64,000 bases of DNA, taken from assembly GCF_000372745.1 (NCBI RefSeq), contig NZ_KB889665.1:1-64000 (forward strand), written 5' to 3'. Numbering within the stretch: the first letter of the stretch is position 1; each line of letters begins with the position of its first letter. The DNA is from Embleya scabrispora DSM 41855. GTDB lineage: Bacteria > Actinomycetota > Actinomycetes > Streptomycetales > Streptomycetaceae. The translations under genes and the position numbers were made by a program. Below, piece by piece: positions 42,843 through 52,529 of the stretch. The notes beneath the pieces were generated by a model that was given only the letters and a program-made list of their open reading frames with translations, was not told the DNA's origin and did not search any database.

Positions 42843-42958
42843 CACGCCGCCGAAGGCGTGTTGTCGGAGGCCGGAGGCGCCCCAACCGGGGAGCCTTCGG
42901 CCTTCGCCGTTGCGGCGGCTGCCGTTCCGGATGGCCGAGTCGTGAGGGCGTGGGTCAG

Positions 42959-42964
42959 TACCAT
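42959..42964 (+). promoter_or_regulatory. -10 box of relA
   Basis: TACCAT in TACCATGG lies 31 bp before the relA TTG, predicting a short leader that contains the ribosome-binding site GGGAGGAG. The embedded ATG (42963) is in frame with relA but lies upstream of the expected transcript start. Confidence 0.45.
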
Positions 42965-42995
42965 GGAAGTTCCGTCATCTGTGGGAGGAGTTCCC

Positions 42996-45773
<2,778 letters not shown>

Positions 45774-45895: not shown

Positions 45896-48676
45896 TCAGC
45901 CGCGTGGGCCGCGCCAGACGGTCATCGAGATCTTCCAGTACTGGCTGGGGCCCGAGGTGGACGGGATCTCGTTGATCCGGACCGTGCCGACCAGGCCATT
46001 GGTGGCGTCCTTGGTGCAGATCACCGAGCCCACCTTGAGGTAGGTGAACGGCAGCTGGTTGTTGTTCGCGTATCGGGTCTCGCCCACGCAGGTCTGGAAG
46101 TCGCTGGGCTGCCCCGGGTCGAGCAGCACCATCTCCTGGCCCTGGATGTAGTTGCCGTCGCCGTAGAAGTACAGGACACCCGCGCTCTGGTTGCCGCAGC
46201 TGCCCTTCCACGTGGTGGTGTAGCTCAGGCCGACGCAGTAGCCGTTGGGCACGTCCAACTGCCGCTCGAACAACACGCCGCCCTCGGCCACGCCGCCGGC
46301 GGTGGCGATCGCGGTCGCGCTCTCCCCGGGGCGAGCCGCGATCGACGGCGCGCCGGTGGCGGTGGATGTGGAGGTCGGGGTGCCGGTGCGTTTGGCGCTC
46401 GTGGTGGTCGAGGGCGTGGGCGCGGTGCCGGCGGGGGCGCTCGGGTTCGGGGTCTGGGTCTGCGGCCCGTTCTTGGCGGCGGGGGACTTGTCGTCGTCGT
46501 TGTTGCGCAGGCCGATCGCCAGACCCCCGCCGGCGGCCGCCAGGACCAGTACGGTGACCGCCGCGATCAGCGCGCGGCGTTTGCGTCGACGGCCCACCGT
46601 CGGATCCTTGGGCGCGCTCGGCGGTTGCTCGTTGACCCGGCGGGTGACCTCGGCGACCAGGGTCGGCGGCAGCCAGCCCTCGCCGATCTGCAGCCGGGTG
46701 CCCTCGGAGGCGACCCGACACAGCTCGATCACCTCGAGCGGGGTCGGGCGCTGCTCCGGGTCCTTGTCCAGGCAGCGACGCAGTACCGGCAGCAACTGTG
46801 CGGGGACGGCCGACAATTCGGGTTCCTGGTGGACCACGCGGTAGAGCACCGAGCTGTCCGTGCCCTCACCGAACGCGGACATCCCGGTGGCGGCGTAGGT
46901 GGCCAGCGAGCCGAGCGCGAACACGTCGGTGGCGGGCTTGGAGGGCAGGCCCCGGGCCTGCTCGGGGGCCATGAACGCGGGGGTTCCGATGCTCATTCCG
47001 GTCCGGGTGAGCGGCGTGGCGTCGGCGGCGCGGGCGATGCCGAAGTCGATCACGCGCGGGCCATCGGCGGCGAGGATCACGTTGGACGGCTTGAGGTCGC
47101 GGTGGATCACGCCCGCCCGGTGCACCGACTGGAGCGCCTCGGCGACGCCCGCCAGCAACACCAGGACGGTCTCCGCGGGCAGCGGACCGTGCCGGTAGAC
47201 GGCCTCGTAGAGGGAGGGGCCCGGGACGTAGGCGGTGGCCAGCCAGGGCTGCGCGGCGTCCGCGTCGGTGTCGATCACAGGGGCGGTGTACAGGCCCTGT
47301 ACGCGCTGGGCGGCGGCCACCTCCTGACGAAAGCGCCGGCGGAACTCGGGATCGTCGGCGAACTCGCCCCGGATCACCTTGACCGCGACGGGCCGTCCGC
47401 CGGGCGTGTACGAGAGGTACACCCGCCCCATCCCGCCCGAGCCCAGCCGGGCCCGCAGCAGATAGCCGCCCACGGTACGCGGGTCGTCGCCTTCCAAAGG
47501 CGCGAGCACGGCTCGATCGGGCCCTTCCCAGGAGGGCACCGCGGGTTCGTTGCCGCCTTCGTCGCGGGCCACAGCCGGTGGGCGCCGATCGGCGGGCCGC
47601 TCTATGACGGGCGGCTGTACGGCGGGCGCGGGCACGGGAGGCGCGGGCTGCGCGGCGGGGGTGCCCTGCGGGTGAGCGGCCGGCCTGGGGTTGGGCTGAG
47701 TGGGCTCGACCGAGGGTTGGGGCTGCGCGGGCTGGTGGGCCGGGGTGGATTCGTGGGGTGCCTGTGCCTGTGCGGGTGCGGACGTGGGCGGGGGCGTCGG
47801 TGTGCTGACCGGGGCCGGGAAGGATTCGGTGGGCTCGGCCTGTGCGGGCTGCCGGATGGGGGTGATGGTGGTTTCGTCCGATGCGGACGTGGGCGGGGCC
47901 ATCGGGGCGGACCCGGCCGGCGGCGTCGGGGCGGTGGCCGGGTCCGGGGCGGGCTCGGGGGGAGTGGTGGGATCGCTGGGGGACTTGCCTTCGAGGGCCG
48001 CGTTGATCGGGGCGATGGTGGTCTCGTCGGACGCGGCGGCGGAGGCGGACGCGGGTGTGTGCGTGGGCGGCGGCGTCGCGGCGGCGGCTTGTGCGGGGGC
48101 AGGCGGAGCGACGGGCACGGGAGGCGACGCGGGCGTCGGGTCGGCGGCCTGTGTGGCGGCTGCCGGAGGCGTGCTCGGCGCGGCGGGCGGGGCGGCGGGT
48201 TTGGCGGGGGCCGCCTCGGCCGGAGGCGTGGTGGGCGGCGGCGGTGCCTGGGGCGACGGCGGGAGTGTGCCGGGGGCGGCGGGCGGGGGCGGTGTCGCGG
48301 GCGCGGCCGGGTGGGCGGGAGGCGGCGGCGTGTTCGGGGCGGGTGGGCGGCCGATCGACGGGGCGACGCTCGGGCGAGGCGGCGGCGGGGGCGAGGACGG
48401 CGCGATGGGGGCCGCCTCCGGAGTCGGGCCGGCCAGATGCGCCGCGGCCACCTCGCGCCACTTGGCCTCCCACCCGGCGGGGGTCGCGCCGCAGGCCGAG
48501 ACGATCGCCATCGTGACGCCGAGCGAGGGCAACATCGCGCCGGACAGCGCCGCCGCCAGCACCGTCTCGTCGACACCCGCGCGCCGGGCCAGTTCGGCCG
48601 CCGGGACCTCACCCGCCGCGTCCCGGATCGCTCTCAGTGCAGCGGCGAATTCGATCAGCGGATCTGGCTGAGACAT
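45896..48676 (-). CDS. Helix-turn-helix / Ser-Thr kinase / transmembrane sensor fusion protein
   Basis: This encodes 926 residues. Residues 1-78 resemble the XRE-like domain of actinobacterial regulators (LRAIRDAAGEVPAAELARRAGVDETVLAAALSGAMLPS). A 320-residue Pro/Ala-rich linker follows, with SDETTIAPI (216-224) and SDETTITPI (266-274). The kinase spans about 403-660: G412-S-G-G-M-G417, K433, HRDLKPSN (H525), DFG 544-546, APE 570-572. A basic stretch and one helix (about 702-723) lead outside to a Thr/Pro linker and a C-terminal domain with four Cys (814, 827, 863, 887), probably two disulfides. GGGGGAG lies 6 bp before the ATG. The ligand and targets are unknown. Confidence 0.88.
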   Translation of the reverse strand: MSQPDPLIEFAAALRAIRDAAGEVPAAELARRAGVDETVLAAALSGAMLPSLGVTMAIVSACGATPAGWEAKWREVAAAHLAGPTPEAAPIAPSSPPPPPRPSVAPSIGRPPAPNTPPPPAHPAAPATPPPPAAPGTLPPSPQAPPPPTTPPAEAAPAKPAAPPAAPSTPPAAATQAADPTPASPPVPVAPPAPAQAAAATPPPTHTPASASAAASDETTIAPINAALEGKSPSDPTTPPEPAPDPATAPTPPAGSAPMAPPTSASDETTITPIRQPAQAEPTESFPAPVSTPTPPPTSAPAQAQAPHESTPAHQPAQPQPSVEPTQPNPRPAAHPQGTPAAQPAPPVPAPAVQPPVIERPADRRPPAVARDEGGNEPAVPSWEGPDRAVLAPLEGDDPRTVGGYLLRARLGSGGMGRVYLSYTPGGRPVAVKVIRGEFADDPEFRRRFRQEVAAAQRVQGLYTAPVIDTDADAAQPWLATAYVPGPSLYEAVYRHGPLPAETVLVLLAGVAEALQSVHRAGVIHRDLKPSNVILAADGPRVIDFGIARAADATPLTRTGMSIGTPAFMAPEQARGLPSKPATDVFALGSLATYAATGMSAFGEGTDSSVLYRVVHQEPELSAVPAQLLPVLRRCLDKDPEQRPTPLEVIELCRVASEGTRLQIGEGWLPPTLVAEVTRRVNEQPPSAPKDPTVGRRRKRRALIAAVTVLVLAAAGGGLAIGLRNNDDDKSPAAKNGPQTQTPNPSAPAGTAPTPSTTTSAKRTGTPTSTSTATGAPSIAARPGESATAIATAGGVAEGGVLFERQLDVPNGYCVGLSYTTTWKGSCGNQSAGVLYFYGDGNYIQGQEMVLLDPGQPSDFQTCVGETRYANNNQLPFTYLKVGSVICTKDATNGLVGTVRINEIPSTSGPSQYWKISMTVWRGPRG

Positions 48677-49282
48677 GGGTGCTCCCCCGTACCTGTTTCC
48701 TGAACCCGTGGTGATTGCGGGTCACATGATGATGGATCGCACGGCTCGAAAGCACCTCGACATCGAAACCGCAAGCAACCCGTAGCCATCACCTGCGGGA
48801 CCCGAACCACCGTGACACAAGGCCCGGTTCGGACGCCCGAACACACTCGCGAGAACCGACGGCACGAACTCGCGCCCACCCCGACCCCACAGGTGCCGGG
48901 AAATGTACGCCCCCACCGCCGGCCACACGGCGGCCCTGAGTCCGCAACGGACACCGCATGGCGACCCCCGCCCCGCGCCCGCCTTCCGCGAGTGCCCGCC
49001 CCGGGCCCGCCGACTGTTCCCTGCCCGCCTGCTGTCCCTTGCCCGGCCGCCCCGCGCCGGTCCGTCGCCGCGCACCCCCGTCCCGCGCTCGCCCGTCTCG
49101 CGGCTGGGGAGGTCGTCGGCCGTGTGTGTCGCTGCGGATCGGCGAACTGCTCGCCGTGACCGTCCGGTCCGGCTGGACCCGGCCCGGCGGGCGATCGGGT
49201 GCGAGCAGCGCCGGTTCGGCGGCTCGGTGGAGCCGATCGCGCACGGTTCGACCCTTCGCGGAAGCGCGCGGGGCGTGCGGAA
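48677..49282. other. Non-coding region upstream of the HTH-kinase gene
   Basis: About 600 bp without a credible gene separate the kinase gene from the DUF349 terminator. Frames on both strands are open by composition only. No promoter could be assigned with confidence. The length suggests a sizeable regulatory region or 5' leader for the kinase. Confidence 0.5.
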
Positions 49283-49343: not shown

Positions 49344-50573
49344 TCAGCCGGAGAACTCAGCCAGTGCCTTGTTCGCCTCGGCCAGCCACTCCGCGCGCGC
49401 CGCGATCGACTCCTCGGCCTCCCGCAGCTTGCGCTCGTTTCCGGCCGCACGGGCCTTCTCCGCCTGCTGGGTCAGCTTGTCGATCGACGCCTGGATCTGA
49501 TCCACCGCGGCCTGCGCCCGCGCCCGAGCCTCCGGGTTGGTCCGCTTCCACAGCTCTTCCTCGGCCTCGCGGATCGCCCGCTCGACGCTCTGCAGGCGGG
49601 CCTCCATCTTCGGCCGGGCATCGCGCGGGACGTGGCCGATGGCCTCCCAGCGATCGTTGATCGAGCGCAGCGCCGCCCGCGCGGCCTTGACGTCCGTCAC
49701 CGGGACGATCGTCTCGGCCTCGACGAGCAGCAGCTCCTTCGCGGCCTGGTTCTCCCGCTGCTCGGAGTCGCGCTCGGCGAACACCTCGCTGCGCGCCGCG
49801 AAGAACACGTCCTGCGCGGCCCGGAAGCGCTGCCACAGCTCTTCCTCGACGTCGCGCTGGGCTCGGCCGGCGGCCTTCCAGTCGTTCATCAGGTCGCGGT
49901 AGCGCGCCGCGGTGTCGGTCCACTCGGTGGACGTCGACAGCGCCTCGGCCGCCTCGACCAGCTTCTCCTTGACGCGCTTGGCGCTGTCGCGCTGCCCGTC
50001 CAGCTCCGCGAAGTGCGCCTTGCGGCGCTTGGCGAAGTTGGACCGGGCCTGCGAGAACCGGTGCCACAGCTCGTCGTCGGCCTTGCGGTCCAGCCGCGGC
50101 ACGGCCTTCCACGCGTCCACCAGCGCGCGCAGCCGCTCGCCGGCCGGGCGCCAGTCCGTGCTCTGGCCCAGCTGCTCGGCCTCGGCGACGATGCGCTCCT
50201 TGGCGCCCTGCGCCTCCTCCTGTGCCTTGGCGCGGGTGGCCTTGCGCTCCTCGCGCTTGGAATCCACCACGGTCACCAGCGCGTCCAAACGCTTGACGAG
50301 CGATTCCAGATCGCCGACCGCGTTCGCGTCGACGATGCTCGCGCGCAGGCGCTCGATCGCGTGGTGGGCGTCCTTGGGAGCGAGGTCGGTGGTCCGTACC
50401 CGCCGCGCGAGCAACTCCACCTCGACGGCGAGCCCCTCGTACTTGCGCCGGAAGTAGGCCAGGGCCTCGTCCGGGGAACCCGCCTGCCACGAACCGACGG
50501 AGCGCTCACCGTCCGCCGTCTTGACAAAGACGTTTCCCTGCTCGTCCACGCGGCCCCACGGGTCGCTGCTCAC
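49344..50573 (-). CDS. DUF349 helical repeat protein
   Basis: This encodes 409 residues from GTG. After an N-terminal segment (SDPWGRVDEQGNVFVKTADGE) the protein is charged helical coiled coil. Three or more DUF349 repeats are recognisable by W-k-x-[AV]-[GP]-R-x-x-[DE]-x-x-L-W-x-R-F: DAWKAVPRLDRKADDELWHRF, DWKAAGRAQRDVEEELWQRF and RWEAIGHVPRDARPKMEARL. Such proteins occur widely in actinobacteria beside the cyclophilin gene, as here. Function is not established. Cytoplasmic. Confidence 0.9.
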   Translation of the reverse strand: MSSDPWGRVDEQGNVFVKTADGERSVGSWQAGSPDEALAYFRRKYEGLAVEVELLARRVRTTDLAPKDAHHAIERLRASIVDANAVGDLESLVKRLDALVTVVDSKREERKATRAKAQEEAQGAKERIVAEAEQLGQSTDWRPAGERLRALVDAWKAVPRLDRKADDELWHRFSQARSNFAKRRKAHFAELDGQRDSAKRVKEKLVEAAEALSTSTEWTDTAARYRDLMNDWKAAGRAQRDVEEELWQRFRAAQDVFFAARSEVFAERDSEQRENQAAKELLLVEAETIVPVTDVKAARAALRSINDRWEAIGHVPRDARPKMEARLQSVERAIREAEEELWKRTNPEARARAQAAVDQIQASIDKLTQQAEKARAAGNERKLREAEESIAARAEWLAEANKALAEFSG

Positions 50574-50678: not shown

Positions 50679-51518
50679 CTACTTGGCCACGGTCACGCTG
50701 TCGAGGACCACGTTCTCGTGCGGCGCACCGTCGCTGCCGCCGTCCTCGGTGCCCGCGGCGGCGATCTTCGTCAGCACGTCCATCCCACCGGTGACCTTGC
50801 CGAACGGGGTGTAGTTCGGCGGCAGCTTGCTGTCCCCGGTCACCAGGAAGAACTGGCTTCCGTTGGTGCCCGGCCCCGAATTCGCCATCGCGACGGTGCC
50901 GGCCGGGTAGGACGCCGAACCGTCCGGGCCCGCCGTACCGAGATTCTCGTCGACGAACTTGTAGCCGGGACCGCCGGTGCCCGTTCCGGTCGGGTCGCCG
51001 CACTGGAGCACGGCCAGACCGCCCGTGGTCAACCGGTGGCACTTGGTGTGGTCGAAGAACTTCTTGCCCGCCAGGAACGCGAACGAGTTCACCGTGTGCG
51101 GCGCCTTCGCCGCCTCCAACGCCACCTTCACCTCGCCACACGTGGTCTTGAGGGTCATCGTGTACGCCGCGTTGGTGTCGATCGACATGGCCGGCTCGGT
51201 GCCGAACTGCTCCTTCGTCGGCTCACCCGGAGCCGGCGCCGCACACGTCTTCGGCTTGGCGTTGGGGGTCGGCGACTGTGGCGCCGAGGGCTGCGTGGTC
51301 GGCGTGTTCGACGCACTCGCGTTCGTCGACTTGTCGTCGTCGTCACTCGCCGCCACCGCGAGCCACGCCCCGCCACCGGCCACCACGACCACCGCCGCGA
51401 CCGCTGCGATGACCTGGTTGCGCCGGCGCCGACGTGCCTGTGCGGTCCCGCGTCGTTGCTGCTGGCGCTCGAACTTCTCGCGCGCGAGCTGCCGCTGGCG
51501 CTGCTGTTTGGTGACCAC
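50679..51518 (-). CDS. Membrane-anchored cyclophilin-type peptidyl-prolyl isomerase
   Basis: This encodes 279 residues from GTG with GGAGAG upstream. A Gln/Arg-rich cytoplasmic start and one helix (VIAAVAAVVVVAGGGAWLAVAA) are followed by an Asp/Ser/Thr/Pro linker and the cyclophilin domain: KFFDHTKCHRLTTGGLAVLQCGDPTGTGTGGPGYKF and VAMANSGPGTNGSQFFLVTG. The catalytic Arg (CHRL) and GDPTGTG are kept. Cys near residues 91, 125, 159 and 172 may form disulfides outside the membrane. A -10-like TAGACT (51698-51703, minus strand) would give a long leader. Confidence 0.9.
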   Translation of the reverse strand: MVTKQQRQRQLAREKFERQQQRRGTAQARRRRRNQVIAAVAAVVVVAGGGAWLAVAASDDDDKSTNASASNTPTTQPSAPQSPTPNAKPKTCAAPAPGEPTKEQFGTEPAMSIDTNAAYTMTLKTTCGEVKVALEAAKAPHTVNSFAFLAGKKFFDHTKCHRLTTGGLAVLQCGDPTGTGTGGPGYKFVDENLGTAGPDGSASYPAGTVAMANSGPGTNGSQFFLVTGDSKLPPNYTPFGKVTGGMDVLTKIAAAGTEDGGSDGAPHENVVLDSVTVAK

Positions 51519-51833
51519 CGCGTGCTCTCCTGGATTCGAACGGACTCGATGACGGACTCGATGCGGATGAACTCGACCCGGACGCCCGACGGCCGGACGA
51601 GGGCCGGAGGAGGGCTCCCGATGCCGTGACGGGATCCATGCACCGGTCCCGACCTGCGGTGATCCCGCAGCCTCGGAACCGACCGCAGCTCGCGCACAGT
51701 CTAGGCACGCACCCCCTGAACCGGTTCGCGATCCGCCCCCGCGCGCCGGTAGTCTCGTACCTGATTCCCACGTCCGCCGCATACTTCCGTGCTTGCCCCG
51801 CCGCCGGAAGACCCCGAGACCGAGAGGACGAAC
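51519..51833. other. Divergent region, cyclophilin gene / MBL-fold gene
   Basis: This 315-bp gap contains a minus-strand TAGACT (51698-51703) and a plus-strand TAGTCT (51750-51755), each a plausible -10. The latter lies in GCGCGCCGGTAG, shared with the yebC promoter. No gene is seen. Confidence 0.5.
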
Positions 51834-52529
51834 GTGATCGTCGCCGGGTTCCCCGCAGGGTCCTTCCAGACCAACTGTTACGTGGTCGCCCCTGCCGCCG
51901 GCGAGGAATGCGTCATCGTCGACCCCGGGCAGGACGCGTTCGACGGCGTGCAGGACATCATCCGCGAGCACCGGCTGCGCCCGGTGGCCGTCGTGCTGAC
52001 CCACGGACACATCGATCACATGTTCTCCGTGGTGCCGGTCTGCGCCGAGCACAAGGTGCCCGCGTGGATCCACCCGGACGACCGCGACATGCTCTCCGAC
52101 CCGGCCAAGGGTCTGTCGCTCGGCGTGGGGCAACAGCTGTTCGGCGGGATGACGTTCACCGAACCCGAGGACGTGCGCCTGCTCACCGACGGCGCCGTGC
52201 TCGACCTCGCCGGCCTCGAACTGACGGTCCATCATGCGCCCGGCCATACACAGGGGTCGGTGGCCTTCGGCACCCAGGGGAGCGCGGACATCCCGCCCAT
52301 CCTGTACTCGGGTGACCTACTGTTCGCCGGCTCCATCGGACGCACCGACCTGCCCGGCGGCGACCACGCGCAGATCTTGCGCTCGTTGTCCCGGGTGTGT
52401 CTGCCCCTGCCGGACGAGACCGTCGTCCTGTCCGGCCACGGCCCCCAGACGACGATCGGCCGCGAGCGTGCGAGCAACCCTTATCTGCAAGAGCTGACGC
52501 CGCCCGCGGGACCGCACCGAGGAATGTGA
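51834..52529 (+). CDS. Metallo-beta-lactamase-fold hydrolase (glyoxalase II-like)
   Basis: This encodes 231 residues. The zinc motif is T-H57-G-H59-I-D61-H62. Further ligands are the His in [13 protein letters not shown], the Asp in [19 protein letters not shown], and a C-terminal [11 protein letters not shown]. The N-terminal FQTNCYVV is typical of hydroxyacylglutathione hydrolase-like proteins. In mycothiol-using actinobacteria the thioester substrate may be mycothiol-based, which is inferred. The GTG at 51834 has GAGAGGAC upstream. The end overlaps an alternative hisS start. Confidence 0.88.

Follow-up and report, generated by a model that had tools for sequence, protein, structure and literature searches.

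A predicted receptor Ser/Thr kinase of Embleya scabrispora carrying an N-terminal XRE-type helix-turn-helix domain

Domain organization of the fusion protein

A gene in the first 64,000 nucleotides of contig NZ_KB889665.1 of Embleya scabrispora DSM 41855 (this whole stretch is hereafter referred to as the window) encodes a 926 amino acid protein in which an N-terminal helix-turn-helix (HTH) domain, a linker, a Ser/Thr kinase, a membrane helix and an outer domain are joined in one polypeptide. This is a real and uncommon fusion. We interpret the protein, with moderate confidence, as a single-pass receptor Ser/Thr kinase in which the HTH serves as a docking or dimerisation module rather than as a sequence-specific DNA binder. 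An earlier, sequence-only reading of the window had proposed four parts in a single chain, and these are recovered by the stop-free reading frame, Pfam matches, AlphaFold2 modelling, hydropathy and the positions of the Cys residues.

The reading frame begins with an ATG codon and contains 0 internal stops, and its guanine-cytosine content is 0.72/0.63/0.90 by codon position. A match to the Pfam family Pkinase at residues 408-650 (E-value: 1.4e-35; 123 bits) rules out a chance reading frame. The kinase carries the motifs that define a Hanks-type Ser/Thr kinase, namely the Gly loop (GSGGMGRV), the VK lysine (AVKVI), HRDLKPxN (HRDLKPSN), DFG and APE (MAPE), and its top matches in the PDB are PknA and PknB, such that the complete kinase previously placed at residues 403-660 stands. 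A single strong hydrophobic segment occupies residues 703-721 (mean hydropathy 2.4; next best elsewhere 1.7), in agreement with the membrane crossing expected from residue 702 onward. It is adjoined by GRRRKRR, a short run of basic residues of the sort often present at the inner face of membranes, suggesting that the N-terminal side of the helix is cytoplasmic.

Orthologs retain this organization. In Yinghuangia soli (NZ_JAKFHA010000009.1; L060/L062) the HTH and kinase are encoded in one frame at the same locus. In Streptomyces sp. SID3343 (NZ_WWJX01000954.1; G003) the HTH lies at the edge of one contig, and a second contig begins with a kinase of the same clade and continues into the relA/spoT-type neighbour; judging by these neighbours, the two pieces probably constitute one gene. 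The kinase frame of a fourth genome (G004) is open to the contig end at WRAAMASQLA, matching the end of the Yinghuangia HTH. As such, evidence for the HTH exists for all four kinases of what is here termed the window clade, two of them being intact and the other two truncated at contig ends. The annotated ATG is supported by these orthologs with an intact N-terminus and by a likely ribosome-binding site, GGGGGAG, 6-12 bases 5′ of the start, a similar G-rich stretch preceding the matching ATG in SID3343. Together they rule out a true start downstream, in which case homologues without the N-terminal domain had been anticipated.

The helix-turn-helix domain and its likely role

The Pfam family HTH_31 was matched at residues 9-69 with 26.7 bits when the whole protein was scanned, just below the cut-off of 27, and with 31.6 bits, above it, when residues 1-93 were scanned alone. 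The AlphaFold2 model of residues 1-93, derived from a five-row alignment, comprises five helices (6-21, 26-33, 37-45, 52-61 and 69-81) with a mean predicted local distance difference test (pLDDT) score of 87 and a predicted template modelling score of 0.74. Comparison of the model with the PDB using Foldseek retrieved the XRE-type regulators C.BclI, ClgR and C.AhdI as top matches (best E-value: 0.0078; 0 below 0.001), while the HTH profile matched PDB sequences weakly, with HipB and HigA on top (best E-value: 0.039). Residues ~1-81 of the model are read as an XRE-type HTH fold and, together with the Pfam score of residues 1-93, this places the domain in the HTH_31/XRE group. The sequence-only reading had assigned residues 1-78 to such a domain while allowing that residues 1-80 might fail to model as an HTH; an XRE-like fold was obtained, with the correction that the helices span residues 6-81.

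For comparison, 145 HTH rows from fetched loci were aligned, from which loci L001-L020, L027-L056 and L065-L090 had been left out beforehand, and the 92 rows that were non-identical and had no more than 15 gaps were kept. At column 36, where the recognition helix begins, Ser or Thr is found in 73 of the 92 HTHs. Acidic residues at both columns 36 and 37 occur in only three, those of the window protein (Asp-Glu), SID3343 and Y. soli. These three window-clade HTHs furthermore lack Arg/Lys throughout columns 34-50, and their net charges (-4, -6 and -6) are among the lowest of the HTHs compared. That the recognition helix begins with acidic residues argues against an ordinary reading of DNA in this clade and, since this feature is restricted to the clade, we favour on sequence grounds a role in protein interaction or tethering rather than in DNA binding. 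Of the two alternatives offered by the sequence-only reading, the repurposed interaction module thus fits the acidic helix start better, and the DNA-binding protein fits it less well.

Several points weigh against this interpretation. An acidic character does not preclude DNA binding by an HTH, and the charge argument is drawn from the sequence rather than from model electrostatics. Columns 34-50 are free of Arg/Lys in 17 of the 92 HTHs (4/8 kinase, 7/44 NTPase and 6/40 other rows), and the lowest net charge overall (-9) is found in L192, while the NTPase row L064 also reaches -4. R31, R32 and the basic stretch near the membrane may contact DNA. The recognition helices of other HTH-kinase fusions described below (L137/L114 and L124/L130) keep the usual Ser along with one to three Arg/Lys residues. 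Finally, the model of the outer domain is weak (mostly beta; pLDDT 63).

The foremost alternative, which we nonetheless regard as unlikely, is that the HTH does bind DNA. The protein would then be a membrane-tethered kinase that senses or is activated by DNA, in effect like YabT of Bacillus subtilis, or a membrane regulator tuned by autophosphorylation. It is favoured by the HTH_31 assignment, by XRE repressors being the nearest structures and by the basic stretch adjoining the membrane helix. YabT provides a precedent, being described as a membrane Hanks-type kinase that is activated by DNA binding (PMC6333020; PMC3708118; PMC6213207). However, the acid pair at positions 36 and 37 speaks against DNA binding by the window-clade HTH. 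Like YabT, the window protein is a membrane Hanks-type kinase with a DNA-binding part, in its case a putative one. YabT binds DNA by means of a basic juxtamembrane region instead of an HTH and is without an outer domain (PMC6333020), whereas the window protein possesses an outer domain and hence falls outside the YabT type as defined by these two features.

A second alternative is suggested by the proteins on which the HTH occurs. When the frames of the 92 HTHs were sorted by the presence of a P-loop motif, 44 were nucleoside triphosphatase (NTPase)-like, eight were kinases and 40 were others, from which we conclude that the HTH is a portable module; in one set of HTH-bearing frames that was read, the HTH is mostly followed by an NTPase. 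The window HTH could therefore be a homotypic adaptor that pairs with the HTHs of NTPase (nSTAND-like) proteins, linking the receptor to conflict or stress systems. This is improbable, as a search of the window genome with the HTH, at E-values of both 0.001 and 1e-7, returned the query as the sole match, giving no sign of a close partner within the genome, and no linked partner gene was found. The window protein is not itself an nSTAND-linked HTH protein, as a kinase follows its HTH and no NTPase family is among its Pfam matches.

The outer domain family

Seven Cys residues are present in the protein (62, 635, 653, 814, 827, 863 and 887), the last four of which are located in the outer domain, as was claimed for a four-Cys domain beyond the membrane helix. 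When 150 Streptomycetaceae genomes were searched with residues 784-926, 37 gave matches, at 41 places. Alignment of 16 of 29 frames, including that of the window protein, showed five invariant columns; two of these hold the Cys residues equivalent to 863 and 887, present in 16/16 members. All four window-clade members have the second pair (814/827), while elsewhere a pair is found at another place or not at all. The conserved Cys residues suggest that the domain, a putative sensor, forms disulfides. No Pfam family was found in more than one of the 16 members, the outer-domain profile had 0 matches among PDB sequences up to an E-value of 10, and Foldseek comparison of the model returned nothing usable (best E-value: 0.24). 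The outer domain represents a widespread family for which there is no Pfam model.

Excluding the four places of the window clade and L041, the remaining 36 places (L219-L254) were fetched with their upstream DNA. At 31 of them, one frame encodes both the outer domain and a kinase; of the remaining five, three are truncated at contig ends, and L220 and L232 gave no in-frame kinase. These Streptomycetaceae receptor kinases occupy the same branch of the kinase tree as the window clade, but differ from it in that an HTH match at an E-value of 0.01 occurs in 0/31 kinase frames. The frame start is visible in 30 of the 31, and in 26 of these fewer than 90 residues precede the kinase. The only HTH match nearby is weak (0.014) and in a different frame of L221. 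Either the window clade thus gained the HTH or its sister group lost it. At most other places the outer domain is attached to a kinase, and at L041 it is found on a short membrane protein without one.

Among the seven genomes examined from the two genera, four have the gene, and it is absent at this locus from three (G001, G002 and G020). In the latter the relA frame follows the DUF349-encoding gene after ~0.5, 1.2 and 0.14 kb, respectively, with no kinase between them, and the search with the outer domain gave no match in these genomes. That the HTH is a neutral leftover of the fusion, on an otherwise ordinary receptor kinase, would accord with these absences and with the 31 kinases that manage without an HTH, but is very improbable given that the HTH has been kept across two genera (57% and 81% identity to that of the window) despite differing linker lengths.

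Proposed function and comparison with known systems

Under the docking or dimerisation interpretation, the window protein would be a receptor kinase of the AfsK-like or PknB-like actinobacterial kind, for other members of which dimerisation and autophosphorylation are established. The outer beta domain, probably held by disulfides, would receive a signal from the envelope, possibly by sensing a ligand, and this would alter dimerisation of the kinase, which would phosphorylate itself. The HTH, carried on a long flexible linker inside the cell, may recruit a partner or substrate to the kinase or assist dimerisation, having presumably lost DNA binding in the window clade.

The best NCBIfam model for the protein is that of Streptomyces AfsK (NF053615; residues 394-761), but its 289.4 bits fall far below the cut-off of 1300, and the outer part of AfsK is of another kind. 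The PASTA kinase model (PknB/Stk1; NF033483) similarly reaches 182.6 bits against a cut-off of 450, and only over the kinase part (residues 405-646). Neither PASTA nor NHL families are among the Pfam matches of the whole protein, in line with the expectation that these usual sensors are absent. RodZ is a single-pass membrane protein with an inner HTH for protein contact, but it has no kinase, and the window protein has no RodZ-type Pfam match up to an E-value of 1. The window fusion is a variant of the actinobacterial receptor kinase and not a categorically new system. The titles and abstract openings of the open-licence literature that were searched contain no description of an HTH-kinase fusion of this order; in the parts consulted, three papers discuss kinases and HTH domains, and the fusion is not evident there (PMC4601284; PMC1183210; PMC7159879).

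Other HTH-kinase fusions and kinase phylogeny

Searches with the HTH profile covered 245 genomes of the order (116 with matches at 1e-7; 21 candidates scored per genome), 197 genomes of the class (31 with matches; as a rule 27 scored per genome) and 14 genomes of one sister family (nine with matches at 1e-10). Among the matches listed, 94 loci (L092-L185) were read, comprising 29 and a further 36 of 37 short-frame rows from the order and 29 from the class, with 1.5 kb of sequence visible past the HTH (3 kb in the case of the 36 short-frame loci); order-search frames longer than ~1000 residues for which there was no locus and 15 class-search rows lie outside this set. An HTH and a kinase share one frame in six of the 94 loci (L114, L124, L130, L137, L168 and L173), which form three groups besides the window clade. 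Two of the 30 rows of the sister-family search are HTH-kinase fusions, these again being L124 and L130. Within the window genome, 19 other kinase loci (L002-L020; the match and 1.5 kb on each side) include none with this HTH in the kinase frame.

The first group includes a 711-residue frame of a Streptomycetaceae strain (L137/L218; G254) with the domain order of the window protein, namely HTH, linker, kinase, hydrophobic segment and Cys-containing domain. Its second member (L114/L217; G188), likewise from the Streptomycetaceae, carries an additional part that separates the HTH from the linker, followed by a kinase, hydrophobic segment and outer part. Both resemble the window protein in HTH type, linker, kinase, hydrophobic segment and the presence of Cys in the outer part, but differ from it in having another outer domain, another kinase branch and a recognition helix with the usual Ser. 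The outer part of L217 resembles a tandem duplicate with repeated Cys residues. The second group (L215/L216, equivalent to L168/L173), from another family of the same class, likewise encodes HTH, linker and kinase in one frame, but a hydrophobic stretch and Pro/Gly-rich tail take the place of a visible outer domain. The third (L124/L130), from a sister family in the same order, combines the same HTH type with a Hanks-type kinase and is set apart by two HTHs preceding the kinase; no membrane segment was detected in it by a simple hydropathy rule. HTH_31 scores above the Pfam cut-off in L137, L124 and Y. soli and below it in L215 (25.0 bits against 27). It is not called in L217 at an E-value of 0.01, where the HTH rests on the profile match (9e-25). 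An architecture unique to the window protein is ruled out, given the same order in L137/L218 and fusions in two more lineages; the sequence-only reading had known of no described system with this order. The same HTH type is also present, with one hydrophobic segment and varied outer parts but without a kinase or P-loop motif, at L093, L110, L116, L122, L131 and L144.

Two kinase-domain trees of 37 rows each were constructed, the first after four truncated rows had been dropped and the second after the same four and three distant own-genome rows had been dropped and three rows added. The four window-clade kinases group together (support 100/99 and 100/98 in the two trees) and adjoin those that share their outer domain (98/93 and 99/98). 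Four label changes on the tree are required to account for the ten HTH-kinases, of which the starred branches force at least two. The approximately unbiased test rejected a single clade of all ten (p = 0.00028), which is thus ruled out, as well as smaller sets (p = 0.00038 and 0.0029). It likewise rejected groupings of the window clade with L137 and L217 (p = 0.013), with L124 and L130 (p = 0.00085) and with L215 and L216 (p = 0.0044). Since the trees reject a single clade, several separate fusions are likely and constitute the simpler reading, although long branches are present in the trees and one gain followed by many losses is not strictly excluded.

The repeated fusion is of more interest than the single protein. 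The prevailing view is that Ser/Thr kinases of bacteria reach DNA via separate substrates. With an HTH in the kinase chain on several branches, it can be tested directly whether receptor kinases can be tied to DNA or to HTH partners, and the two recognition-helix types among the natural fusions provide a ready comparison set. We tentatively put forward, as a speculative extension, that Actinobacteria have repeatedly and independently fused this HTH module to receptor kinases, yielding an unrecognised HTH-tethered class. At the membrane, its Ser-type members would sense DNA or the position of the chromosome and couple this to a signal from outside, while the window clade would have turned the module into a protein dock.

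Linker motifs and genomic context

The linker between HTH and kinase (~308 residues) contains 101 Pro and 69 Ala residues. Two near-identical SDETTI(A/T)PI repeats are observed in it (window positions 47858-48025, minus strand). Two ETT motifs occurred in none of 5000 shuffles of the linker, for a pattern that was defined after the motif had been noticed. Related motifs are ETTVAP in G004 and ETRIAP directly after the HTH in L215/L216. The pattern [DE]T[TRQK][IVL][AT]P was found in 9/66 kinase frames, representing five distinct proteins as overlapping loci were counted repeatedly, and in 1/608 other long frames, a set that includes many non-genic ones. No such motif occurs in the Y. soli frame or in the 29 outer-domain frames, as cut for reading. 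The motifs are candidate sites for phosphorylation or docking and may resemble the ETT site of GarA and OdhI.

Table 1. Features of the kinase gene and its neighbours in the window.
Feature	Position in window	Strand	Basis
Neighbouring relA/spoT-type gene, convergent	42858..45773	+	Pfam
Whole gene, 926 amino acid HTH-kinase-membrane-outer-domain protein	45896..48676	-	Open reading frame, Pfam, codon guanine-cytosine content
Outer beta domain, residues 784-926, Cys 814, 827, 863, 887	45899..46327	-	Homology search, alignment, AlphaFold2 model
Membrane helix, residues 702-722, GRRRKRR just before (positive side presumably inside)	46511..46573	-	Hydropathy, sequence
Ser/Thr kinase domain, residues 403-660	46697..47470	-	Pfam, PDB matches, motifs
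Pro/Ala-rich linker, residues 83-390	47507..48430	-	Composition
ETTITP motif, residues 268-273, possible phosphosite	47858..47875	-	Motif search
ETTIAP motif, residues 218-223, possible phosphosite	48008..48025	-	Motif search
HTH_31/XRE domain, residues 1-81; recognition helix ~37-45, D36-E37 preceding/beginning helix	48434..48676	-	Pfam, AlphaFold2, Foldseek, alignment
GGGGGAG, likely ribosome-binding site	48682..48688	-	Sequence
Neighbouring DUF349 protein gene, upstream, same strand, synteny anchor	49344..50573	-	Pfam

The Pfam domains encoded nearby are SecD, phosphoribosyltransferase, cyclophilin, metallo-beta-lactamase, histidyl-tRNA synthetase and class II tRNA synthetase (D, K, N). PADLOC matches (PD-T4-6 and mad6) fall on the kinase part, or on the kinase and the low-complexity part that follows it, and were dismissed as generic. 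In SID3343 (L061/L068) a response-regulator-like gene, of the NarL type as judged by eye, is located between the DUF349-encoding gene and the HTH-kinase gene on the same strand; no remnant of it was found in the intergenic region of the window (best E-value: 0.072). Residues 693-794 of the kinase protein, which cover its membrane segment and outer linker, weakly match the adjacent cyclophilin-type reading frame (50679-52247) at window positions 51135-51443 on the minus strand (39% identity; E-value: 1.5e-6), which may reflect composition or a shared segment.

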